Positions 3,875 through 24,210 of a stretch of DNA of 24,210 nucleotides are shown piece after piece (the stretch's first letter is position 1; every line of letters starts with the position of its first letter). Where the stretch lies: positions 1 through 24,210 of IMG/VR virus record IMGVR_UViG_3300010151_000158, one strand, 5' to 3'. Both the position numbers and the translations under genes were made by a program. This DNA is from a virus. The notes beneath the pieces were generated by a model, which ran no database searches, was not told where the DNA came from, and saw only the letters and a program-made list of their open reading frames with translations.

Positions 3875-6800
3875 TTATTCCACCGTTAATTGTGAATCTC
3901 CCGATATGTTTGTTGTTAATACGGTAGGTGAAGTAATTGTGATTTCAATTGCTTTCTTTCCGTCTGTTGTTGTATCATCAGTTTGTTTACATCCCTTATA
4001 ATACAAATTTTGTAGAGCTGTTGTACTCTCATAAATAGGTGATATGTCAGAAACATCTAATGAAGATGATTGTGCATAAAATCTTTTGTGTGCTTTTACA
4101 TTAGTATTACCACCCCTATAATATTCTACACTTGAAGTGAAAAAATAATTTTCTATAAGGTGATAACTATTTGGTCTTGAACTACTAATAAACGGAACCG
4201 TTACTTCTTCCATTATAGATTTCCCATTCTGACCACCAGTGATACCACCAGACTTTATACGTGACTGACTATATTCAGTATCTCCCCTTGTTTTAGTATT
4301 AAAACTATATAACGATGGAGTATTAAATACATCATATGTTTTTATTTTTGTAGATGAATTTGGCCCATCAACTAATACATTTGAAAAATCTTCATAACTA
4401 CCAGAAAAGGTTAATGCATCTGAATTTATATCTATATTATCATATAATTCAAGTCTATACAATCCACTAAACCCAGGATACATAGATTCACTAACAAACC
4501 CTTCTTTATCAATAAATTCACCACCAAATGCTGGAGTTAATGATTGACTTGTAAATCCTTGGTGATAATCAGTTGTACCTGTAGCACCAGGATATATAGA
4601 CTCACTCGCAAATCCTTGATAATAATCTGTAGTACCAGTAAATGCCGGGGAAACAGACTCACTCATAAATCCTTGATAATAATCTGATGAACCCATAGTA
4701 GCAGGATACATTGATTCACTTGAAAATCCCTCGTAATAGTCAGAAGTGGCACTAGCTGTTCCAAATCCCATTGACATAGAATTTTCAAAGTATGGATTTT
4801 CAATTGTTGGGTAATCCATAAATTTTACTTTATTACGTCTTAAAATATTTTCTTCAATTAACGTACCTAATGTCGGATTTGCTCTAGCAGGAATTAAAGT
4901 TTTTACTTGTTGAAAAAGAGCTTTATCAAAAAACTTTAATACTCTCAAATAATCCCAAAAATTATTTGGTGAATTATATTTTTGGAAGTATTGGTCTCGT
5001 ATAGTTTTCAATCCACTATAATAAGTTTTATACTGGTCTCGTGGGTCACCTATATAATCGGAAATGTCAAGGTTACCTACAGAAAAGATTATATCTTCGT
5101 TTATAACATCAGTTGGAGCAAAGTAAATACCAAGTTTATTAGAATCAGTACTTTTTAAATCGAATGCACTAACTTCATTTCTACTATCTATTGATAATTT
5201 AGTACCATAAATTAATTTATTTTCTTCTATTCTAACTTTTGTAGCTCTTCTATTTTGTCCACCTATTTGTGGTACTAACATTTCTGTTACATCTTCTGTA
5301 TTATCGTAACTATTTCTATCTGGATAATTTTTAGCACTACCAGATTGTACATAACTTTGGTCAGCACTTGTATCAGTTATATCTACAGAACCAGTTCCAT
5401 GATTTACATATTGATAGAATGGATATCTTAAAACTAAATCGGTATAAGACGCTGACGGATGGTTACCATCATACGCTTTTGGAGCTCTAACATGGTTATC
5501 AAATCGTGATTCTGATAATGGACTATTCCAATATCTAAATTCCATCATCGAACCAGTAAGTTGATGACCAAACTCATTTCCTGACTTACCACCAATATAT
5601 CCAGCACCATCTTGTTGGAATCTATTATTCATTCCTTGTGGAGCACCACCACCACGACCATCTATATTCAAACTTGCAGAAGATTGAAGATAAATTCTAT
5701 GTCTTGTAGCGTCATATTTTTTAACATATAAATTATAATTAATATTTCTACTATTACCATCATCTACCATAACCTCGCCACTAGCAGAAACTCGATTTAA
5801 CATGACAGAATAAAATTCATTGTCAAATATTGGTAACACAGATGATGATATAGCCGCGGTAGAAGAACTACCTGTTATAGCAAAAGATACATAACCATAA
5901 TTGTCTGTACCAGAACCAGATGGTTCTAATCTTAATGCCCAATCAGTACCTTTTTGGAAAAGTACTTGATGATTACTACCAGATGATACGGCTCTAAATC
6001 TTAATTCTATCGTATCTGGTACTCTACCAGAATTTATATCATCAACCCAAGTTGTTTCTACATTTTGATTACCAAAGAAATTTAATGACCTTGTAAATTT
6101 ACGAGTTATTTCGAAAACTGGATTTTGGTCTGAAAGATGTGGGCCACCATATTCTCTAACTCTCAATATTGATGATGGTAATCCATAACAATTTATTAAA
6201 CCCTTTAATGCACGAGATGTACCTTTTGATTTCAAAAAGAATGGCATATTAACTAATATTCTATTCCAAATTTCTCGTGTAATATCTCTTTCAGTTTCGG
6301 CCGATGATTGTAAAGCTACATTATCAGAACCAGACACTTGGACACCGAGAGCGTATTCTGGTAAACTAATTAAAGATTTACCATCATAAACTTTCCAACC
6401 CGACGCTTTAGCTACTTGATGTACTAAATCTCTCGATAATCCCTCATCAACTTTGTTAGTACGATGATTTATATCAGTTAAAGCTTTTGTATACAACCAT
6501 ATGTCATCAAAATGGTGACCTACCATGTCAATAAACTTTAAAAACTCTGTATTGTCATTGTCATCACGTATATGTAGTGGTAAATTATTAAACAATCTAT
6601 CAAGATTATTTCTATCATATAAAGATGCACTATCATCATTTCCAAGTTTCCAACTTCTATATTGACTCGATGTTGTATGACTCAGAACATATGGATTGAG
6701 TAATGTTCCGGCTCCACTTGATTTTGGCCAACTCGTATCATAAAACTCACCAAGTGAACTTGATTCATACGATGATGATTGATAATAAAGATATTTTTCA

Positions 6801-9800
6801 AAACTATCAAAATTATTTTTTATATCCCAAATATTTCTTTCCGTACTTTTTATATCATCCAATGACGCACTAACAGAATTATAAGATTGACTAATACTCG
6901 TATAATGTTCTATTCGTTTTATTTTATATTCAAAATTATCATATCTTTTTTGTATAGAACTAAATTTTACAAAGTTTTCGTAATTAGTATAATCGTGATT
7001 CAATTCTACACTCAAATCACTTTGACTAATAAATTTATTTTCAAGATGTGTAGATATTTCAGTATTTGATGAAACAAGTTGTTCTCTTGTTTTAAAATCT
7101 GTTGCTTCAAATTCTATTTTATCCGCTATAACTTCAGAATTAAAAGATGCATTTCTTAATACAATACCATCTACTTTATCGTCTACAAAATCAATTAATT
7201 GAATATCTTGTTTTGTGGATGGTAACATCTCTCTTGATACATGAACAAAGTTTTTCTCTTCTATATCAACGGGCAATGGTTCGTACAATTTATAAACCAT
7301 AGCGTGTGGATAATTTTTCCAATTCAACTTATCACTTCTAAAGTTAGTTACTAATGAAAATTTATTGTTACCTAAATTTATAAGTGTTCTTAAATCCCTC
7401 TTTTCTTTTAATCTCCAATTAGATTGTGCTCTTTTAAATGGATATTCCCACTCCTGTCCCTCTAACCAAGTACCTTGTTCTTCTTCATTGGGTGCTGGTG
7501 TACCTGGATTTCCCCACACGTGACCAGTTCTTATAGCTTCTTCACCCCAACTCCTATCTACCGTAATTAAAGAAGAATCGTCATCAATTAATTCGGCGTC
7601 TGTTATTTGTGCAACATAAGATTCATAGGTTGGAATATATTTTACATCATCAATGTATATAACTTTAGATATAGTACTAATGTTTCCACTATTATCTCGT
7701 ACACTCGCTTTAGCTACATAATGACCAGATTCTTGATATCTGTGTGATTCAGTAAATGTTTCGTTATCATAATATTTTTTATCTTCTAATTCAACATCCT
7801 TTTCTATAATATTAGAACCATCTCCGAAATCAAATTCATATTTGACAATTTGACTATCTACATCTTTAGCACCAATAATAAAAGTAACTTCATTTTCTTT
7901 ATCGGAACTATCTTCTTCCAAACCATGGGCATACATGACAAGTTCTGCGGCCTCATTTGGTAAAATAACAACCTCTTTACTTGCTAATTTAGTATATGTA
8001 TCTATTCCATCAGACCACAATGTAGTTACTGTTATTTGATAACTACCAGCCGACTTATATGTGTGACCTGGTATTGGTGACTCACCATCAACTTCATCAA
8101 ATTCACCATCACCCCATTCCCAAAGATTACGTACAATATGTGGTTCTGCTTTAACGGCTATTTTCTTTTCATACCCATCTACATCACCATCGGCATATTT
8201 TATAAAAATATTAGTTGAATAAATACCAGGTTGCGTGAATGTGTGTTCAAATGGTTCCATAAAACCTGGTTCAAGTATTTGTTCTTCCCAAATTCCATCT
8301 CCCCATTGCCACAAAACACTTACAGCTAATTTAGGTACATAAAGACACGGGTCGTTTTCATCTTCAGTAACAGCTAGTGGCCACCAATTCCAAGCTCTAT
8401 CATCGGTACAACCAGTTACTTTCGCTTCTGGAATTATTTGTTGAAATGGATATGGTGGAAATTCTGCTATTGCGAATGGTGATATTGTTCTATTACTATT
8501 CAACCAAGTTTGATAATCTAATAATTGTTGTTGTGAAATCTGACCAGCCGCGACCGCACCAGTGAACCAATCGTATAATTCGTGTGCATCTCTATATACT
8601 GGAATATCACCATCCATAACTTGATACATATCCCCAGTCTCTGCATCTGTCTCATATAGTGGCATTGAATCCCAACCATATATCTCTGTCCAAGTTACAA
8701 CTTCTTCTTCAACCGCTGTTACGGTGTTATTAAATTCATCTACTCGTAATTCCCACTCATCTAAATTTTCTTGTAATTTCTGCGACGTTGGTACATTAAG
8801 AAGTTGCATTAAATCACCACGTGTGGGTTCGGTAGTTCCTTCGTAATATAATGACCAATCTCCTCCATTTTCGGCTTCTAATATCGCCCAATACATATCT
8901 CTTACGTCTTCGGCCGAATAGACTCGCATATCGCTCTGACCTGCGTTAACAATCGTATCGGCAAATAAACCAACATGGTCGGGAGCACCATCTGGTACAT
9001 CATATGAACCAATTTGAAATACAAATGGTCTAATCATTATTGTTGCAATTCTAGCTACTTGGAATCCACTATTTTTCCAATCGGTATATGCCTCTATATC
9101 GGCGGGTGTAAGTGTTCCAATTGTTAATGCATTTTGTAACCAAGCGGCGGATAATAAAACTCCTGGGTCTATTATTTGTCCATTACTAAATTCAAATGGT
9201 ACTAAACCAAGACTTTCAAAATAACCGGCCGTATCATCAACTTCTCTAATATCATTAATAGGAACAAAAAATGCACCTAACCAATTTGGTAACGCGTCTT
9301 CGAGTGGCGGTTCAAATTTTACATCAATCCTATCACCTGGTAAAAATTCAAACGCTACATCATCCCCAATTTGTTTTCCTCTTTCTTCAAGTAAAAGCGC
9401 GTCACCTGGATGGCCACCATCAATGGTCACCATCACATCACTTTCTTGTATATTATATTTAGAGTTTGGGCTACCATCAGGAAGACCAAGTATTTCAATA
9501 TATTCTGCTTTCGTATCTGTGTACGCCGATATTGTTTCGTCAATTATTATTTCTTCTACGGTTGTATTTATTTCATATTGTGATTTAACCGTAGGTGAAT
9601 TAGTTTGACCTTCTATTGTAAATGCATTTCCATTAAAACCACTAACAACATACTCTGTCTCGCCCCAACTAATTATATCACCAATTGCAATATTATATCT
9701 TGATGATGCATTCATCAAAACGGCTCGTCTACTCTCTGCTAAAGCGGCTGCAGTATCATCAGTCACTTCTTGCGCAAACAAATCAAAAGCCGATGAGAAC

Positions 9801-10288
9801 TGGGAGTCATAAAAAGCAATCAGATTACCATCTGCTAATAATTTTGTTTGTCCATTAGTAGTAAATCTCTCGTCAGTTTCATTTATTGTTACGTCAACTA
9901 TTTCTGTAGTACTAGCTTCTCCACCGAAAAATTCTTGTGCGTTTGTACTATATGAAGTATCAAGTCTTATTAACCTGGAACCAGCTCTTTCTATAATTGT
10001 ACCACGAACCCAACTATCTCCATCTGCGGGAAATAAGCCCGAAGGTAATGATGGTGCTGGGTCTGGTGGTAATGGAGGCGGTGGCGGCGGCGGAGTTGGC
10101 GTCGGAGTTGGCGTCGGAGTTGGTGGTGGTGGAGATGGTGTAGGAAAATTATCTGGCGGTGGATTTGGAGGCGGAGGCGGTGGTGGCGGCGGAGAAGGTG
10201 GTGGTGGAAGAGGAATTGTTTCACCATCCCATTCTAACATCTTTAATATAAGAGTGTTTTGTTTTCCACCCCATTTTATTTTTGACAT
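3875..10288 (-). CDS. Giant multidomain baseplate/tail protein with proline stalk, PKD domains, LamG-like domain and 19-aa repeats
   Basis: The likely start is the ATG at 10288 (about 2137 residues), one base after the upstream stop and behind GGGGGAAG; an in-frame TTG at 10303 is less likely. Domains: residues 1-19 are a short conserved head (MSKIKWGGK...MLE) shared with the gene at 11891-12904. Residues 26-82 are a Pro/Thr-rich stalk. Around 380-425 and 576-616 lies a weak internal duplication. Around 626-651 is a Cys-flanked GCTDDRAWNWW...DPCLY motif like the short CTD-type repeats of surface proteins. Around 655-890 are three PKD-like domains with WQWGDG, WEWGDG and FDFGDG cores. Around 1235-1360 is a helical region with LPLHIRDDND and FLKSKGTSRALKGL, faintly like tail protein I. 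Around 1425-1600 is a LamG/concanavalin-like fold. Residues 1850-1944 are five 19-residue repeats. PKD and LamG domains usually bind sugars or protein surfaces, so host adsorption or a wedge-to-fibre scaffold is plausible (inference). Confidence 0.85.
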   Translation of the reverse strand: MSKIKWGGKQNTLILKMLEWDGETIPLPPPPSPPPPPPPPPNPPPDNFPTPSPPPPTPTPTPTPTPPPPPPPLPPDPAPSLPSGLFPADGDSWVRGTIIERAGSRLIRLDTSYSTNAQEFFGGEASTTEIVDVTINETDERFTTNGQTKLLADGNLIAFYDSQFSSAFDLFAQEVTDDTAAALAESRRAVLMNASSRYNIAIGDIISWGETEYVVSGFNGNAFTIEGQTNSPTVKSQYEINTTVEEIIIDETISAYTDTKAEYIEILGLPDGSPNSKYNIQESDVMVTIDGGHPGDALLLEERGKQIGDDVAFEFLPGDRIDVKFEPPLEDALPNWLGAFFVPINDIREVDDTAGYFESLGLVPFEFSNGQIIDPGVLLSAAWLQNALTIGTLTPADIEAYTDWKNSGFQVARIATIMIRPFVFQIGSYDVPDGAPDHVGLFADTIVNAGQSDMRVYSAEDVRDMYWAILEAENGGDWSLYYEGTTEPTRGDLMQLLNVPTSQKLQENLDEWELRVDEFNNTVTAVEEEVVTWTEIYGWDSMPLYETDAETGDMYQVMDGDIPVYRDAHELYDWFTGAVAAGQISQQQLLDYQTWLNSNRTISPFAIAEFPPYPFQQIIPEAKVTGCTDDRAWNWWPLAVTEDENDPCLYVPKLAVSVLWQWGDGIWEEQILEPGFMEPFEHTFTQPGIYSTNIFIKYADGDVDGYEKKIAVKAEPHIVRNLWEWGDGEFDEVDGESPIPGHTYKSAGSYQITVTTLWSDGIDTYTKLASKEVVILPNEAAELVMYAHGLEEDSSDKENEVTFIIGAKDVDSQIVKYEFDFGDGSNIIEKDVELEDKKYYDNETFTESHRYQESGHYVAKASVRDNSGNISTISKVIYIDDVKYIPTYESYVAQITDAELIDDDSSLITVDRSWGEEAIRTGHVWGNPGTPAPNEEEQGTWLEGQEWEYPFKRAQSNWRLKEKRDLRTLINLGNNKFSLVTNFRSDKLNWKNYPHAMVYKLYEPLPVDIEEKNFVHVSREMLPSTKQDIQLIDFVDDKVDGIVLRNASFNSEVIADKIEFEATDFKTREQLVSSNTEISTHLENKFISQSDLSVELNHDYTNYENFVKFSSIQKRYDNFEYKIKRIEHYTSISQSYNSVSASLDDIKSTERNIWDIKNNFDSFEKYLYYQSSSYESSSLGEFYDTSWPKSSGAGTLLNPYVLSHTTSSQYRSWKLGNDDSASLYDRNNLDRLFNNLPLHIRDDNDNTEFLKFIDMVGHHFDDIWLYTKALTDINHRTNKVDEGLSRDLVHQVAKASGWKVYDGKSLISLPEYALGVQVSGSDNVALQSSAETERDITREIWNRILVNMPFFLKSKGTSRALKGLINCYGLPSSILRVREYGGPHLSDQNPVFEITRKFTRSLNFFGNQNVETTWVDDINSGRVPDTIELRFRAVSSGSNHQVLFQKGTDWALRLEPSGSGTDNYGYVSFAITGSSSTAAISSSVLPIFDNEFYSVMLNRVSASGEVMVDDGNSRNINYNLYVKKYDATRHRIYLQSSASLNIDGRGGGAPQGMNNRFQQDGAGYIGGKSGNEFGHQLTGSMMEFRYWNSPLSESRFDNHVRAPKAYDGNHPSASYTDLVLRYPFYQYVNHGTGSVDITDTSADQSYVQSGSAKNYPDRNSYDNTEDVTEMLVPQIGGQNRRATKVRIEENKLIYGTKLSIDSRNEVSAFDLKSTDSNKLGIYFAPTDVINEDIIFSVGNLDISDYIGDPRDQYKTYYSGLKTIRDQYFQKYNSPNNFWDYLRVLKFFDKALFQQVKTLIPARANPTLGTLIEENILRRNKVKFMDYPTIENPYFENSMSMGFGTASATSDYYEGFSSESMYPATMGSSDYYQGFMSESVSPAFTGTTDYYQGFASESIYPGATGTTDYHQGFTSQSLTPAFGGEFIDKEGFVSESMYPGFSGLYRLELYDNIDINSDALTFSGSYEDFSNVLVDGPNSSTKIKTYDVFNTPSLYSFNTKTRGDTEYSQSRIKSGGITGGQNGKSIMEEVTVPFISSSRPNSYHLIENYFFTSSVEYYRGGNTNVKAHKRFYAQSSSLDVSDISPIYESTTALQNLYYKGCKQTDDTTTDGKKAIEITITSPTVLTTNISGDSQLTVE
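4457..4741 (-). repeat. Five tandem 57-nt (19-residue) repeats inside the giant gene
   Basis: Five uninterrupted units of exactly 19 codons are visible. The consensus is D-Y-Y-[EQ]-G-F-x-S-E-S-[MVI]-x-P-[AG]-x-x-G-[ST]-[ST]; for example, one unit reads DYYQGFASESIYPGATGTT. Units 1-3 are the most alike; units 4 and 5 diverge (DYHQGFTSQS and IDKEGFVSES) yet keep the register. The Gly-Phe, Ser-x-Ser and Pro positions are invariant in all five. Such short aromatic/Ser repeats suggest an extended or beta-stacked segment near the C-terminus. Confidence 0.9.
10043..10213 (-). repeat. Proline-rich low-complexity coding tract with 12-nt tandem units
   Basis: These 57 codons encode mostly Pro, with Thr-Pro dipeptides in the middle and long Pro runs on either side. 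At DNA level the plus strand shows GGTGG/GGCGG strings and a repeated GGCGTCGGAGTT unit. It is strikingly GC-rich against the AT-rich surroundings, so slippage length variation is likely. It probably forms a stiff polyproline stalk between the N-terminal head and the body of the giant protein. Confidence 0.85.
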
Positions 10289-10289
10289 C

Positions 10290-11402
10290 TTAACTTCCCC
10301 CAAAATCGTTTAACTTGGATGGACGTGCACCATACTCATTATTATTTAAATCGTTTTCTATAGTTTCTCGAACTTCTTGAGCGGTTTGTGGTGTCGTTTG
10401 TGATTCTACTTGATTTGGTGTATAACTACCAAACCCATCATCATCCACAGTACCAACCATTCTCGCTACAAAATCAAATCCACCAGGTTCGGGTTTTGAT
10501 GGTAAATATAATGGCATCTCTTTAATTACAGATGGTATTGTCTGTTGTTCATATGGAATCAATGGTTCATTCGGTAAAGGCATTTCATTTAATATAGTTG
10601 GTGGATACACTCTTGGGTCATAACGCTCTATTTCATAAACTCTTCGTTCTATATGTGTTATAAATCCCCTTGGTAAAACAAATTCACCACCTACACTTTG
10701 TTTATTATGTCGTTTCCATCTCTTCACACCATCAATTCTAATTTTATTACCACCAAATCCATCTGAAAAAGATATTCTAGCTTCTTCGGTACTTGGGCCT
10801 GGTGAATGCCAACGTTGTATAACTTTACTCAAACTATTGAATGATGTTTTATATCTACTACTATCAATATCATTTGGTATTAGTCTAATTTCCTTTCTAT
10901 CATCAGATATTTTATGTACCCATGCCGATAAATCTTTTATTAATAATTCTCTTCGGTTAGTATCTCTACCTTTAATACCAGCGTAAATTAAGTTATCATC
11001 ATCAATATACCAAGGTTTACCCGTGTCATCGGGGTACATCCGTTTTGGACCAGTATAAACTTCATTGTTATCAGCATAAACTAATATAGTTTCATTAGTA
11101 CCAAACTCTTCTCTTAAAAAATTATATTTGACATGGTACTTCCCTCTGATATAACCCTTACTTCTTAAATCATTACCAGGTTTTGAAATTATTTGATTGT
11201 TCTTTATTTCATAATCTTTTGTTATAAAACTTTCAATTAAATTATCACCAGTCTCATCATATATATGACACTCAATATAATCATGCACACCTGGCGTACC
11301 AGATAGAAAGGGTGGCCAATCATAACCTGGTTGACCTACAGGGTAATTACCACCTCTTTCTAAGATTTGTTTATCTTCTTTTTTTAGTCTATTTATAGCC
11401 AT
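10290..11402 (-). CDS. Unrecognised probable tail/baseplate structural protein, C-terminus DFGGS
   Basis: This 370-residue protein starts with ATG directly after the upstream TAA; TTGGAAG inside the upstream gene serves as ribosome site. The first half has beta-type segments such as HDYIECHIYDETGDNLIES and RGKYHVKYNFLREEFG, resembling the mixed beta modules of large phage baseplate proteins. The middle has an Arg/Lys-rich patch (RIDGVKRWKRHNK). The second half is Pro-rich (RVYPPTILNEMPLPNEPLIP) and likely extended. It ends in LNDFGGS, where GGG GGA AGT also supplies the ribosome site for the giant gene, whose start is 1 nt past this stop. There is no enzyme motif. A partner or adaptor for the giant protein is suggested only by the tight coupling. 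Confidence 0.65.
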   Translation of the reverse strand: MAINRLKKEDKQILERGGNYPVGQPGYDWPPFLSGTPGVHDYIECHIYDETGDNLIESFITKDYEIKNNQIISKPGNDLRSKGYIRGKYHVKYNFLREEFGTNETILVYADNNEVYTGPKRMYPDDTGKPWYIDDDNLIYAGIKGRDTNRRELLIKDLSAWVHKISDDRKEIRLIPNDIDSSRYKTSFNSLSKVIQRWHSPGPSTEEARISFSDGFGGNKIRIDGVKRWKRHNKQSVGGEFVLPRGFITHIERRVYEIERYDPRVYPPTILNEMPLPNEPLIPYEQQTIPSVIKEMPLYLPSKPEPGGFDFVARMVGTVDDDGFGSYTPNQVESQTTPQTAQEVRETIENDLNNNEYGARPSKLNDFGGS

Positions 11403-14139: not shown

Positions 14140-15269
14140 TATCTTATCACCCTAAATTCAAAATCATTATCTATAATTTGCACTACTTCACCAACACCAC
14201 TACCACTAGCTATTTTGAAATTAATCCTATAATTTCTTTCTGGTTGAAAACCTTTTAACCATACATCAAAGAAATTTCCAGTTGAATCACAACCAATAAT
14301 TGAACCACTACCAAAAGGAATAATTACATCTTCTGTATACGCATCTTTTATTTCAAAATACGAACTACCACTTGGTAAATACTTTGGTGTTACTTGATTT
14401 GTAGTGGTTGTTGACCAAGTTTTTGCTGGAAATCTTTCTCTACCAACAACTCTAAATCTAACTTTAGAATCTTCTTGATACTCTGGTCTAAGTCCTTTCA
14501 TATAAACTTCTAAGTTATGTATATCACTTCCAGTCAATGGTGTTAATGAACCAGTATCCCATGTTGTACTATTCCAAACCACTTCTAATGTAGGTTGATA
14601 TATGGTGTTCGTTTCTCTCGAAAAGAATTTAAAATGACCAAGTTGTGTTGTATTACCTTCGGCTAAATTCGAGTCTGAGTTGTCTACACTACCACTTCTC
14701 TTTACCATGAACCCTTCGTTTGGATAAGAAGAACCACTTGTAATCCAATTCTTTACAATACCAGTTACGTCCATTCTAACATCACTAGCTTCATTTGTAA
14801 ATGATTGTGACGCTTCTAATGTATGTGTAGTAGATGTTCCATTAAACCAAGTTCCACCACTATTATTACTACCAGTTACCCATTGGTCAGCTGTAGTTGC
14901 ACCAGTTCTATATCTCCAAGACACACCCTCTGTATCATGTGGCCAATCTTCAAAATGTCCTTGTCCATTCTCCCAAGATTGACTAACAGGGTATGCGTAT
15001 AACATATCACTTGAACCCAATTCTTGTGAGTTAGCGTCATATAAATTAAGATAATATTCGGCGTTTGATGGTATCAATCCACTACTATATGATGCGGATA
15101 TATAAGATAAATCAAACTTAATTAAAACTCTGGAAACATTTATTTGTGTACCAGAATCATTCATATCTTTACGTACTTCTAATATTTCATCGAGACCAGT
15201 ATTCTGACTTGACGTAGCTGGCCCTTGATATAAAGTAGCATCTTGTGTTGCAAATTCGTGATAGTGCAT
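14139..15269 (-). CDS. DNRLRE-like beta-sandwich tail protein
   Basis: The 376-residue product has the hallmarks of the DNRLRE / disaggregatase-type domain: an early QDATLYQGP (residues 9-17), NTGLDEILEV (23-32), then VSRVLIKFDLSYI (45-57), and later VRMDVTGIVKNWITSG followed by NEGFMVKRSG. Such domains occur in extracellular and carbohydrate-associated proteins and in phage tail proteins. The C-terminal half has further beta-rich segments and ends DFEFRVIR. It lies immediately after gp6 and overlaps its stop codon by one base (TAATG), so it is made together with the wedge proteins. A baseplate-periphery or receptor-contacting role is inferred. Confidence 0.68.
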   Translation of the reverse strand: MHYHEFATQDATLYQGPATSSQNTGLDEILEVRKDMNDSGTQINVSRVLIKFDLSYISASYSSGLIPSNAEYYLNLYDANSQELGSSDMLYAYPVSQSWENGQGHFEDWPHDTEGVSWRYRTGATTADQWVTGSNNSGGTWFNGTSTTHTLEASQSFTNEASDVRMDVTGIVKNWITSGSSYPNEGFMVKRSGSVDNSDSNLAEGNTTQLGHFKFFSRETNTIYQPTLEVVWNSTTWDTGSLTPLTGSDIHNLEVYMKGLRPEYQEDSKVRFRVVGRERFPAKTWSTTTTNQVTPKYLPSGSSYFEIKDAYTEDVIIPFGSGSIIGCDSTGNFFDVWLKGFQPERNYRINFKIASGSGVGEVVQIIDNDFEFRVIR

Positions 15270-17305
15270 TATGTTATACTCCCCATTACTTGACCTTTAA
15301 TATCAGAATCTGGGTATTTTAATTCAAAAATACAAGGGTCTAATGACGGATAATATATTCCATCCTTATAAGCTGCACCCATATCATAAATATGACCAGA
15401 GTACCCATCTGTAGTTCTCCACTTGTTTCTTAACATAACTGGTAATTGTATTGGGTCACCAGGGCCATCACCATCTAAGTCTATTGAAAATGGTATTAAA
15501 GTAGCTACACCATCAACTAAAGATAGTTCATATGACAACTCTGCAATAACAATTGGTTGGTTTATTTGCCACTTATCAATGTTAAAAAACTCTTTAACCT
15601 TCTGAATACACTTCAATAATACTTCTTCTTTGTTATATCCTTTTTTGGTCATAATTTTAAAATCAACCCCTATATTAACAATCCAAGCGTCTTTCAAATT
15701 TATAGCATCAGTTACCATTCTATACTGACCAAGGTAATTTTTTAAGTTTTCTTTTACAGCTTTATTAAGAGTTGTTAAATGTTTGTTATAATCATATCCA
15801 AGTAAATACATATTTAAAGCCAATGGATTCGGTATCCTCGTTGGAACTTTCGGAGCTCCAGTTGCTGGTGTATCATCTTGTCCATATAGTTCTTTATCAA
15901 TTGAAAAAATACCAGTACCATCACCAAGCTCTTTCTGAAATTGGAATTGTGCTCCTTCCAATTGTTCATCGGGAACTATGTACGCTTTAGCTACAGCACC
16001 ATATTTAGCAGGCATCGAATATGCTCTCATTATATAATCTTCTTTAGTTACAGCTCTACCTTGAGCGGTAAAGTACGCTAAAGCGTTTTGTCTAATTTCA
16101 ATTAACGATTCTTTACCTTTACCACCACGAGCTGGATTTGGATTTATAACTCCAACTGAACTTTTCGTAGCTGTTACTGTAGCTGAATTAAGTCCAAGTG
16201 GGTCTAAATTAGTGAAAATAGAATTTATTTGTTTGATAGAACCTTCACCAACATTGTGAGCAATACCACCACCGTGTGCATATTTTATGGTCAATGTAGT
16301 GTTTGTTGGAGCTAGTCCGTACGCTCTTGTTTTCAAAAAATTACTTGGGTCAAATGTTTTGTCTAACATCGAAACACCACCTGGTAATGAAGAACCTACA
16401 TTATCTGGATTTGGTATGATATCCTCGTCAGCTCCCGCCGAGACCCCAGCACCGAACCTCAATTCCGTTTTATCATCAGACCTAATATACCTTGTGAACC
16501 TTCTTGGTGTTTTTATAAGTTTAATTAAATATGGTGTATCATCAGAATATTGTGATAATTCTGGGTCAACTGTACTTGAATTTGACACATCATCAAATAT
16601 AATATCTTTCGCTAAAAAGTCAACTTCATACCATTTATTTCCATCACTATCTGTTACCGAAATTATATCTGTAACATTTGTCTTGGATAAAGCTATTCTA
16701 TCATATTTTTTAGCAGTTGTAAATATAAAAGTATCTGTTGTTATTGTACCACTTAAAACGGATACTGATTTTTTCAAAAGATATTTAGTAGGAACATTAC
16801 CCGCCGTTTCATATATACTAACAGAACGTTTATCAAATGAACTTGAATACGCAAAGTTTACATCTTCTTCTGTACGAAATACTACACCAGTTTTTGATTG
16901 TAATTGTAATCCAGCATTAACACTTAACGCATATCTCATGTCTGGTTTTGTATTTTCACCAGTACCAGTTGCTGGTACAGTTTGAAATACATCAACAATT
17001 GTTGAAGATGGTGTAGCTAACTTTGGTCTATATCCCAACGATTGAGCTATTTCAAAAACATTGTCGAGTTCTTCTGCGTAAGATAACAATGATTCTTTAA
17101 ATCTATCATCCACATAATAAGATAATACATCACCAACATACGATGCCATTTCAATGAACATCATACCTGGGTCTGATTCATTAAAATCATTGTATGTGTT
17201 TGGAAAATATGTTTTAGCAAATTCTATTAAATTAGTTCTAAACGAACTAAAGTCTCTACTTAAATATTTTACTTCCTTTTTTTCTAATTTCGCCGCACTA
17301 GCCAT
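15269..17305 (-). CDS. gp6: Baseplate wedge protein, gp6-like (baseplate J family)
   Basis: This 678-residue protein is close to the 660 of T4 gp6. The N-terminus has the characteristic KYLSRDFSSFRTNLIEFAKT, YNDFNESDPGMMFIEMASYV and GDVLSYYVDDRFKESLL. Later come LRFGAGVSAG, AVTKEDYIMRAYSMPAKYGA and a C-terminal VVIAELSYELSLVDGVATL-like segment (written PIVIAELSYELSLVDGVATL), all typical of the gp6 / Baseplate_J family. In T4, gp6 dimers form the ring joining baseplate wedges and drive the hexagon-to-star change. The ATG has AGGAG about 8 nt upstream. It directly follows gp25, its known baseplate partner, which supports the assignment. Confidence 0.93.
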   Translation of the reverse strand: MASAAKLEKKEVKYLSRDFSSFRTNLIEFAKTYFPNTYNDFNESDPGMMFIEMASYVGDVLSYYVDDRFKESLLSYAEELDNVFEIAQSLGYRPKLATPSSTIVDVFQTVPATGTGENTKPDMRYALSVNAGLQLQSKTGVVFRTEEDVNFAYSSSFDKRSVSIYETAGNVPTKYLLKKSVSVLSGTITTDTFIFTTAKKYDRIALSKTNVTDIISVTDSDGNKWYEVDFLAKDIIFDDVSNSSTVDPELSQYSDDTPYLIKLIKTPRRFTRYIRSDDKTELRFGAGVSAGADEDIIPNPDNVGSSLPGGVSMLDKTFDPSNFLKTRAYGLAPTNTTLTIKYAHGGGIAHNVGEGSIKQINSIFTNLDPLGLNSATVTATKSSVGVINPNPARGGKGKESLIEIRQNALAYFTAQGRAVTKEDYIMRAYSMPAKYGAVAKAYIVPDEQLEGAQFQFQKELGDGTGIFSIDKELYGQDDTPATGAPKVPTRIPNPLALNMYLLGYDYNKHLTTLNKAVKENLKNYLGQYRMVTDAINLKDAWIVNIGVDFKIMTKKGYNKEEVLLKCIQKVKEFFNIDKWQINQPIVIAELSYELSLVDGVATLIPFSIDLDGDGPGDPIQLPVMLRNKWRTTDGYSGHIYDMGAAYKDGIYYPSLDPCIFELKYPDSDIKGQVMGSIT

Positions 17306-21834: not shown

Positions 21835-21866
21835 TCTTTTTTATTAAAATACATCTATATATATGA

Positions 21867-21875
21867 TATTTATTA
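21867..21875 (+). promoter_or_regulatory. Candidate promoter TATTTATTA for the membrane-protein islet
   Basis: The plus strand reads GATATTTATTAATAAC here. The core ends 31 nt before the GTG at 21907. Its first 11 bases (GATATTTATTA) are identical to the copy on the other strand at 21826-21836, which makes this intergenic region a divergent pair. Confidence 0.45.
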
Positions 21876-21906: not shown

Positions 21907-22248
21907 GTGGATAACACACTAATAGAGAACCTTATCGGTGAGTATGGTTGGTTATTTCTTACGGGTATAATAGCCCTTCTATTTCAAAGTACTATACAAG
22001 AAGCGGTAGATGGTTTAATGGTCTTTTTAGGAAACGACTACAACGAAGATGATGTCGTTGAAGTTGATGGAGAACCTGGACGTATAGTTCGTGTAGGTAT
22101 ATGGAAAACTGTATTCTTTATTTACCATATAGTGGGTGGAAAAATAGTAGGTGGTTCAAAGTTAGTAGTAGCCAATTCTAAATTAAAGGACTTAAAGATA
22201 GAAAAACCACTACCTAACTTAGATTTGTCTAAATATGACGAATCCTAA
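21907..22248 (+). CDS. Mini-MscS-like membrane protein (one membrane helix plus MscS beta domain)
   Basis: This 113-residue protein starts at GTG, preceded by GAAAGGATG; an upstream out-of-frame ATG gives only seven codons. Residues 14-30 form a hydrophobic helix (GWLFLTGIIALLFQSTI) followed by an amphipathic stretch (QEAVDGLMVFLGNDYNEDD). It continues with VVEVDGEPGRIVRVGIWKTV (50-69) and VVANSKLKDL (87-96). This order (pore helix, then D-V-V-E-V-x-G-x-x-G-x-V, then hydrophobic-P/A-N-S-K-L) closely follows the TM3-beta-domain core of MscS mechanosensitive channels, but TM1, TM2 and the C-terminal alpha/beta domain are absent. It lies on the strand opposite to the structural genes. Roles in envelope permeability, lysis timing or osmotic protection during infection are inference; gating has not been shown for such short forms. 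Confidence 0.7.
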   Translation: MDNTLIENLIGEYGWLFLTGIIALLFQSTIQEAVDGLMVFLGNDYNEDDVVEVDGEPGRIVRVGIWKTVFFIYHIVGGKIVGGSKLVVANSKLKDLKIEKPLPNLDLSKYDES

Positions 22249-22292
22249 TAATATATATATATAGTATCATAAAATTTCATATATATCATAGT

Positions 22293-22300
22293 TATTTATA
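22293..22300 (+). promoter_or_regulatory. Candidate promoter TATTTATA before the 73-aa membrane protein
   Basis: In the 89-nt gap between the two plus-strand genes the sense strand reads GTTATTTATACAAT, ending 37 nt before the ATG at 22338. The rest of the gap is AT-rich, with a short TA run at about 22252-22263 and no clear terminator. Confidence 0.42.
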
Positions 22301-22337: not shown

Positions 22338-22559
22338 ATGAAAGAGATAATGAGAGCCGTAAACGAATGGATGACTGGGATGCTAGAAATGCTTTTTAAC
22401 TTTATAGCCGTTGGAGCTGTAGTTGAAGTACTTTTTGGTTCTGGTGTATTCGGTGTTAGTGTGATAGGAAACTTGACCACTATCATTGGTGGGTTTGGTA
22501 ACAGCGGATTCGCTGGTTTACTAGCATTATTATTCTTGGTTGGTTTATACAAGAAATAA
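22338..22559 (+). CDS. Small two-helix membrane protein (holin-like size, function unknown)
   Basis: The 73-residue product has a strong ribosome site (AAAGGAGA). It has a short charged amphipathic N-terminus, a long hydrophobic stretch at about 15-50 (MLFNFIAVGAVVEVLFGSG onward, with one Glu30), a Gly/Asn turn (GGFGNSG), and a second helix (FAGLLALLFLVGLY, 58-71) ending KK. Two membrane helices and a basic tail fit the size and charge pattern of small holins, but many unrelated phage membrane peptides look the same. It is paired with the MscS-like gene on the plus strand and ends at a strong terminator. Confidence 0.65.
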   Translation: MKEIMRAVNEWMTGMLEMLFNFIAVGAVVEVLFGSGVFGVSVIGNLTTIIGGFGNSGFAGLLALLFLVGLYKK

Positions 22560-22631: not shown

Positions 22632-23387
22632 CTAAAAGTTATAATTATAATCTGGTTTCCTCCGTTGGTCATCGGCTATTAAAGACCCAGTATAACTTAC
22701 GTCTACTTGACCAAAAGTAGTAAATTCATGCATCAATCTCTTATGATATTTTTTTAAAGTATTAACAACCCTTGTAATATGTTGTGTATTTGAACCAGTC
22801 ATTTCCCTAATAAGAATATATAAAGCTTTCTTATTAAAATTTTCAAGAAACATACGTCTCCTAAACAATTCTAAAATAGAATCAACTACCATTATATCAC
22901 GATGTCGTTTAAAAACCTTATTTAGATTAGTATCCCAGAATAGTAAGGTCTGTTCCAAAAATATTTCCGTCTCATTTATATACTCATCCTTCTGGATTTT
23001 TAGATTATCCCCATATTCCAAGGAAGATATATCTTGTTTTTGTTTATATGACTTATAATTTTTATTATTATGTAAAATTAAGTAATTTTTTGCTACAATA
23101 CTAAAGTAAGAAAACGCTTTACCCTTACCTTCTTTGAATTTATGCATATTCATTACAAGAAAAGACATAACTTCCTGTTTAACATCTTCACTTGGTACAT
23201 CAAAGTAATAAAACTTAAATGTATGAATGATATTTTCGCATAATTTATCAATTGCTTTGTTAATATGGTCGTTATAAATTCTGTTTCTCATATATGGACG
23301 AGTTTCTTTATTATATCGAATAATAGCATTCTCTGTTTCTTGTGTGAAGTAATAACGACTACTTCCTTTTTTTGCTTTTCTACCCAT
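22632..23387 (-). CDS. gp55: Late-transcription sigma factor, T4 gp55-like
   Basis: This 251-residue protein compares with 185 in T4. The core resembles sigma-70 region 2: helix NKAIDKLCENIIHTFKFYYF, then VPSEDVKQEVMSFLVMNMHK (64-83), FKEGKGKAFSYFSIVAKNYL (84-103) and ILHNNKNYKSYKQK, where the Tyr/Phe/Asn-rich helix would melt the promoter. The C-terminal part has additional helices and ends in PDYNYNF; in T4 the gp55 C-terminus binds the sliding clamp, and this aromatic tail could do so (inference). Its ribosome site AAAGGAGAAG lies within the 3' end of the overlapping upstream gene (8-nt overlap). It would direct host RNA polymerase to late genes, such as the structural operon here. Confidence 0.85.
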   Translation of the reverse strand: MGRKAKKGSSRYYFTQETENAIIRYNKETRPYMRNRIYNDHINKAIDKLCENIIHTFKFYYFDVPSEDVKQEVMSFLVMNMHKFKEGKGKAFSYFSIVAKNYLILHNNKNYKSYKQKQDISSLEYGDNLKIQKDEYINETEIFLEQTLLFWDTNLNKVFKRHRDIMVVDSILELFRRRMFLENFNKKALYILIREMTGSNTQHITRVVNTLKKYHKRLMHEFTTFGQVDVSYTGSLIADDQRRKPDYNYNF

Positions 23388-23649: not shown

Positions 23650-24210
23650 CTATTTTTCTCCAAATAATTCTTCAAATAAGTCTGCATGTTTGTTTGATAG
23701 ACCACTATCTACCACTGGTTCTTCCTTTTTACCACCGACAGAGTGCTTTATTCTATTTACAGACTTTTCTACCACTTTTTCTGAAGCTTCACCAGCTCTC
23801 TTCCATTGGTCACCTTCAATGAATGTAGCCATACAATCGGCTGCATGACAAATACGTGCAATATTTGAACGTAATGAAAATTCTGGAAGATATGACTTCA
23901 AATAACTCTCATTAGCTTTCTCATACATACCATCTGTTAATCTTAAACCAAGATATTCTGTCTGATTCATTGGAATACTAAAGTGTTGTAATAACCATAG
24001 TGCTCTATCTGTAACAGTCATGTATTGTAATTTAGGATTATGTGTAAAAATCTTACCTTGATTCTTACGATGCCACTCAGACTCATATAGAATATAATAA
24101 TCGTGGTCTAAATCACCAACTTTACCTAAATCATGGTGTAGAGTTGCAAAAACTAATTCCTCATCTGTGAAATCTATGGTCGCACCATTACGTTCCCACA
24201 TTTCTCTTAA
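23650..24210 (-). CDS. HD-domain phosphohydrolase (partial, 5' end beyond right edge)
   Basis: The frame is open to the window edge, and residues LRE precede the first Met at 24201, so that Met is probably internal. The visible 186 residues hold ELVFATLHHDLGKVGD, the His-Asp metal-binding motif of HD phosphohydrolases. The His ligand expected earlier in the chain would lie outside the window. Later come LWLLQHFSIPMN and IARICHAADCMATF, where a late Asp would complete the metal site. HD enzymes hydrolyse nucleotides or cyclic nucleotides; substrate here is unknown. The C-terminus (NKHADLFEELFGEK) resembles short hydrophobic/acidic clamp-binding tails (weak inference). It is followed directly by the small membrane protein and the late sigma factor. 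Confidence 0.75.
   Translation of the reverse strand, partial: LREMWERNGATIDFTDEELVFATLHHDLGKVGDLDHDYYILYESEWHRKNQGKIFTHNPKLQYMTVTDRALWLLQHFSIPMNQTEYLGLRLTDGMYEKANESYLKSYLPEFSLRSNIARICHAADCMATFIEGDQWKRAGEASEKVVEKSVNRIKHSVGGKKEEPVVDSGLSNKHADLFEELFGEK

Follow-up and report, generated by a model that had tools for sequence, protein, structure and literature searches.

How little of the mechanosensitive channel MscS can a protein retain and still be recognizable as one, and to what end would a bacteriophage make it? These questions are raised by an ORF at positions 21907 to 22248 (plus strand) of a stretch of DNA that constitutes a whole viral record of 24,210 bases, referred to here as the window. 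The ORF encodes 113 amino acids and begins with a GTG codon, with AAGGA as the ribosome-binding site 7 nt 5' of it. A preliminary description had placed the gene at these coordinates and had interpreted its product as a miniature MscS-like protein on the strength of two motifs, both of which are present: DVVEVDGEPGRIV at residues 49-61 and VVANSKL at residues 87-93. It had also noted a plus-strand islet opposed to the structural genes, which we likewise see; the islet consists of this ORF and a second one of 73 aa (22338-22559), with minus-strand genes on both sides. The 113-aa ORF is a genuine gene on which purifying selection acts strongly (dN/dS of about 0.1 between near relatives), and we refer to its product as mini-MscS on the combined evidence of the ORF itself, its relatives, the Pfam family PF00924, AlphaFold (AF2) models searched with Foldseek, and dN/dS.

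That the gene is encoded by a phage, as had been claimed, is supported by the viral contig itself, by a baseplate wedge protein gene among its minus-strand genes (15269-17305) and by capsid genes in related records, in that PF07068 (T4-type gp23 capsid protein) was found in 6 of the 16 tested, many of these records possibly being fragments. The wedge protein has relatives in Microcystis phage Mel-JY01 (46%) and Flavobacterium phage immuto (39%), and since such a gene is present we take the source of the window to be a contractile-tailed phage. The minus strand also encodes a 2142-aa protein with PKD domains (3875-10303; E 5.5e-16), which is probably an adhesin or tail fibre, and a likely divergent phage sigma factor (22632-23387) with a weak Sigma70_r2 match (E 0.077) and a match to a PHROG transcription regulator (E 8.7e-4); an HD-domain-like protein is encoded at 23650-24201. 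A PADLOC search gave no match to a defence family.

Mini-MscS belongs to a large, conserved and selected protein family found in marine phages, several of which have T4-type capsids. Scanning viral contigs returned 92 relatives when the query was the single sequence and 105 when it was an alignment, so that the family comprises at least 105 stretches; the relatives kept are 50-99% identical. The family profile and conservation statistics were derived from 44 members, mostly 110-138 aa in length, among which 21 columns are invariant. The family is absent from PHROGs, and tblastn searches of 50,697 named phage records found no match, whether the query was the window copy or either of two divergent members. 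A single match came from 84,980 species of bacteria and archaea, on a contig binned in a Pelagibacter MAG that is viral-looking and carries phage-like neighbouring genes. In a separate set of 42 cellular matches, each at least 279 aa long, there was no small MscS core. Full-length MscS genes are rare in viral contigs (seven loci with the one pattern scanned, some of them possibly host flanks), and the idea that a phage MscS was recently truncated in place is therefore unsupported.

The relationship to MscS is best seen at the level of the family. PF00924, which describes the MscS beta-domain, matches 42 of the 44 members, with a best E-value of 3.2e-6, and several relatives score above its curated cut-off (21-28 bits versus 20.2). 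The window copy falls below this cut-off, with 16.7 bits and an E-value of 0.0083 over residues 29-70, and thus the single sequence would be insufficient proof by itself. An hhalign comparison of the family with eight cellular MscS cores, including those of E. coli and a Pelagibacter, scored 32.0, whereas the highest score among 100 column shuffles was 25.0 and reversing the profile gave 14.5; against another set of cellular cores the E-value was 2.8e-5, with about 28% identity over the aligned core, and the divergent phage members by themselves gave 3.9e-5. When 299 bacterial genomes were in turn searched with the family profile, four yielded matching frames of 291-502 aa, as long as complete MscS proteins. 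Searches of PDB sequences gave no match with phmmer and the single window sequence, and chance matches only with a profile. NifZ matches in 22 members (best E 0.009) were judged to be fortuitous, being weaker than those to PF00924 and having no structural echo. Mini-MscS is distantly homologous to MscS across the TM3b helix and beta-domain.

The predicted structure points the same way. Template-free AF2 models of the monomer, built from two alignments, both show a helix, a kink, a second helix and then the strands of an MscS-type beta-domain, with moderate confidence (pLDDT 76 and pTM 0.50 for the first model, pTM 0.47 for the second). When the first model was compared with the PDB using Foldseek, the best 29 matches were MscS-family proteins (best E 5.2e-4), counting 3udc, which is titled just 'a membrane protein' and which we take to be the Thermoanaerobacter MscS; other small barrels appear from rank 30 downward. 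The second model also had MscS-family proteins as its best 13 matches, at weaker E-values (4.3e-3 for the first) and with a large rmsd. A search of predicted viral proteins put three unnamed proteins of 104-138 aa first, followed by giant-virus MscS, and relatives thus appear to have been deposited already without a name. Both an MscS profile match and a predicted fold with the Sm-like beta-domain, the two points on which the preliminary description had proposed to be judged, were found, and its view of a miniature MscS-like protein with only the TM3-kink-beta core is borne out by profile and predicted fold.

Three segments can be delineated in the protein. Residues 13-26, YGWLFLTGIIALLF (21943-21984), form a hydrophobic TM3a-like helix, as judged from the profile, a model helix at residues 3-25 and hydropathy. 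They are followed by the kink and an amphipathic TM3b-like helix at residues 27-42 (21985-22032), seen both as a model helix and in the MscS alignment, and by the MscS-type beta-domain at residues 49-101 (22051-22209), identified by PF00924, hhalign and model strands at residues 50-53, 56-63, 67-76, 79-89 and 98-102, the hairpin at 67-89 being lengthened. Alignment with E. coli MscS is possible over about 75 columns, spanning the TM3 kink, TM3b and the beta-domain, and only these are clearly conserved. Residues 26-28 (FQS) align with L111-Q112-G113 at the kink (an offset of 85), G36 with G121, and the invariant N90 with the Asn of the MscS PN[GS]K motif.

The situation is different for TM3a, where the mapping is an ungapped extension of the profile alignment and is less certain than that of the kink, TM3b and beta-domain; mapped in this way, the L109 gate position of MscS is occupied by L24, which is invariant (44/44), the L105 gate position is Gly or Ala, and A98, G101, A102, G104, A106 and G108 correspond mostly to Y, L, F, V/A/T, V/I and T/L. 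Because these Gly/Ala packing residues are replaced, the TM3a half is alike in topology only, even though W15, L24, F26 and the hydrophobic helix are kept in all 44 members. The earlier claim that TM3 is retained thus holds for TM3b and the kink and fails for TM3a beyond topology, its Gly/Ala packing face being gone. Over 19 residues the hydropathy of this helix is 1.53 in the window copy, compared with a family median of 1.71 and 2.13 for TM3 of E. coli MscS; 33 of the 44 members reach 1.6, a usual threshold for a membrane helix, below which the short stretch of the window copy falls. The tension-sensing helices TM1 and TM2 are absent, there being about 14 residues ahead of the hydrophobic helix in the window copy, as is the C-terminal cage (alpha/beta domain and beta-barrel), since the protein stops about 12 residues past the beta-domain. 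In these respects the statement that nothing else of MscS is kept was correct, but it overlooked features specific to the family, namely the lengthened beta-hairpin, in which GG-K is invariant, and a conserved C-terminal tail, KDLKIEKPL..LDL. A further family motif, GNDYNEDD, stands where MscS has RPFRAGE.

A promoter-like element, ATATATATGATATTTAT, lies 33 bases ahead of the GTG codon (21857-21873, plus strand), and the same element with one mismatch precedes the 73-aa ORF (22279-22295, plus strand); these are its only occurrences in the window, where 0.45 would be expected by chance (two or fewer mismatches). Both islet genes thus appear from their upstream sequences to be driven by one phage element, in opposition to the structural genes. 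Within 1.19 Mb of related loci the element ATATATATNATATTTAT, allowing one mismatch, occurs 54 times: 30 times at 27-40 nt before mini-MscS, 12 times before the 73-aa gene and 12 times before other ORFs, counts that are not independent since many of the loci are near-copies. It is missing from the deeper clades (L042, L044 and L057). This AT-rich element likewise lies at a fixed distance before ORF starts at L050:2714, L060:8923 and L056:2515, and the ORFs that it precedes in this phage group include one that is PhoH-like and one of 1217 aa that is probably structural; it may be a class-specific phage promoter. The T4 late promoter, TATAAATA, was not enriched.

The second islet gene (22338-22559, plus strand) encodes a Gly-rich membrane protein (hydropathy up to 2.08) with the motif FGSGVFGV.VIGNLT, conserved in 12 viral contigs in the scan and in 8 of 16 records tested, and without a match in Pfam, PHROG or PADLOC. 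It lies near mini-MscS on the opposite strand in L037-L039, L043-L045 and L047-L049, whereas in other lineages it is found without mini-MscS, beside a 128-aa gene or between sigma-like and HD genes, and is therefore better regarded as a resident of the locus that is linked to mini-MscS only in part. We considered whether it might supply the missing TM1-TM2, as it adjoins mini-MscS in two arrangements, but rejected this in view of its occurrence elsewhere without mini-MscS.

The surroundings of mini-MscS vary by clade. In that of the window it is beside the sigma-like and HD-hydrolase-like genes; in another setting it follows tail genes and precedes an outer-membrane-type protein, and in further ones it is beside pseudopilins or a DNA polymerase III alpha-like gene. 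An outer-membrane-type protein with a signal peptide is near mini-MscS in 27 loci, at a median distance of 49 bp, and the envelope-type neighbours of other clades also include a lipoprotein and a secreted thioredoxin; such company would suit a membrane role for mini-MscS. Several of these neighbours are of note in their own right. The secreted thioredoxin-fold protein (L033:11174-11578 and relatives in 17 loci; PF00085, E 5.7e-8) is encoded downstream of mini-MscS within a phage envelope-gene cluster, and the pilin-like genes, resembling type II secretion pseudopilins, at L050:8571-9707 and L044:5781-6906 are unusual phage cargo. Lipoprotein-like phage genes at L033:9653-10255, L050:5725-6285 and L057:12534-13514 have a Cys followed by acidic residues (SCDD, SCED), a pattern that resembles the Bacteroidota lipoprotein export signal, and these motifs hint at a Bacteroidota or Marinimicrobia host.

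What, then, might the protein do? We propose that mini-MscS is a minimal oligomeric pore or valve that the phage makes for the inner membrane of its host, a proposal for which we regard the case as evenly balanced. It is a reasonable reading because two similarly truncated mini-MscS proteins form heptamers, one of them a working channel (PMC12334622, PMC11262690). Expressed from the phage's own promoter-like element, the protein would place its TM3a-like helix, the kink and the amphipathic TM3b at the inner membrane with an N-out/C-in topology, as homology suggests, and its Sm-like beta-domain, of which the order and fold come from profile and prediction, presumably on the cytoplasmic side. 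The beta-domains of several subunits would form a closed ring, the probable number being seven by analogy with MscS, TcMscS and MscS2, and a short lipid-sensitive pore would be lined by the helices, lacking both TM1-TM2 paddles and cytoplasmic cage. As a small valve for osmolytes and ions it could keep the infected cell intact under osmotic and envelope stress or, alternatively, set the moment of membrane failure, and it is here that the scheme is at its weakest. With the Gly/Ala face for TM3 packing and gating gone, the pore cannot simply be taken to be that of MscS, and this loss is the main reason against assuming MscS-like gating.

The most serious alternative, which we consider unlikely but by no means negligible, is that the MscS core has been re-used for oligomerization only, as a membrane-anchored Sm-like beta ring serving as a scaffold or plug, for instance at the DNA entry site in superinfection exclusion or as a membrane anchor for phage proteins. 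The loss of TM3a packing and of the L105 gate position alongside strong retention of TM3b and the beta-domain would be explained in this way, as would the short N-terminal helix and the presence of the charged GNDYNEDD motif and the GG-K hairpin, which are not MscS-like, among the most conserved parts; however, retention of the hydrophobic helix with W15, L24 and F26 throughout the family goes beyond the needs of an anchor, and TcMscS likewise has short, divergent membrane helices and yet is a channel (PMC12334622). Interference with host MscS by mixed assembly, the truncated subunit entering host heptamers and locking or opening them, is improbable and without specific support. A target would exist, as MscS-family proteins occur in every one of 14 control genomes and in 20 of 21 bacterial genomes sampled, and TM3b and the beta-domain are homologous to those of cellular MscS, but the aligned cores share only some 28% identity and TM3a no longer has its subunit-packing face. 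Slightly less probable again is a lysis protein, either forming a pore in the manner of a holin or pinholin or timing lysis by collapsing the membrane potential; this would suit a small phage membrane protein adjoining another with the same promoter-like element, but the window protein has no PHROG or Pfam holin match (one weak PHROG hit, E 0.29, in a single one of the 44 members), no endolysin was recognized beside the gene in the contexts inspected, where many neighbours are unannotated, the neighbourhood varies between clades, and a folded MscS beta-domain is foreign to holins. Chance resemblance, in which a phage helix is joined to an SH3/Sm-like barrel that is unrelated to MscS by descent, could account for the sub-threshold Pfam score of the window sequence, its lack of a PDB phmmer match and the small barrels at Foldseek ranks 30 and below, but is very improbable given the recurrence of one Pfam profile across the family, the relatives that exceed its cut-off, the shuffle test, and the joint match of helix and barrel to MscS in preserved order.

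A more ambitious reading, which we put forward tentatively and consider doubtful, is that this widespread family comprises the smallest MscS-type channels known, each subunit contributing a single helix and its share of a beta-ring, and that these channels, with a dedicated promoter shared with a second small membrane protein, act as a phage tension valve controlling envelope integrity or lysis time. Were this true, phages would regulate osmotic conditions at the host envelope with a valve of their own, and the family would provide a natural test of whether a helix and a ring, without tension paddles or cage, are the minimum of an MscS channel. The protein is small and easily expressed in channel-less E. 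coli, so the channel question is directly testable.

Homologues of MscS and MscL in viruses and truncated mini-MscS proteins in eukaryotes were known already; what appears to be new here is the one-helix MscS core in phages. The available part of a 2018 survey describes MscS or MscL homologues, as putative channels, in three large eukaryotic viruses (a 261-aa MscS with three TM helices in an Aureococcus virus, and MscL-like proteins in Tetraselmis virus 1 and a Cafeteria virus), which resemble mini-MscS in being viral mechanosensitive-channel homologues but belong to viruses of eukaryotes, and that part contains no phage one-helix MscS core (PMC6163359). According to a 2026 paper, viral contigs, chiefly of Caudoviricetes, carry genes for MscL and other mechanosensitive channels (PMC13288924), and no published description of the phage core was found in a literature search that did not extend to preprints or to most subscription journals. 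Among cellular proteins, E. coli MscS (YggB) differs in its 286 aa, its TM1-TM2 paddles and alpha/beta cage and its Gly/Ala-rich TM3a, and Arabidopsis MSL10 (8tdk), the best PDB fold match, shares the TM3-beta fold (TM-score 0.59 on the query, 21% identity) but is a full channel with extra helices and a cage. The closest parallels are eukaryotic. MscS2 of the microsporidian Nematocida displodere, a homo-heptamer, is similarly cut down to TMH3 and the beta-domain, having no TM1, only part of the cage and probably no TM2, but was acquired horizontally from bacteria and retains the P129, G143 and P166 landmarks (PMC11262690), whereas in the phage family D44 stands in the place of P129 and the GNDYNEDD and GG-K motifs are its own. 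TcMscS of Trypanosoma cruzi, a heptameric mechanosensitive channel of 478 pS without TM1 or cage, is likewise a miniature MscS core with short membrane helices that stops after the beta-domain, although it is longer (165 aa), has an N helix and TM2 besides TM3, and is a protein for which channel activity has been measured (PMC12334622).
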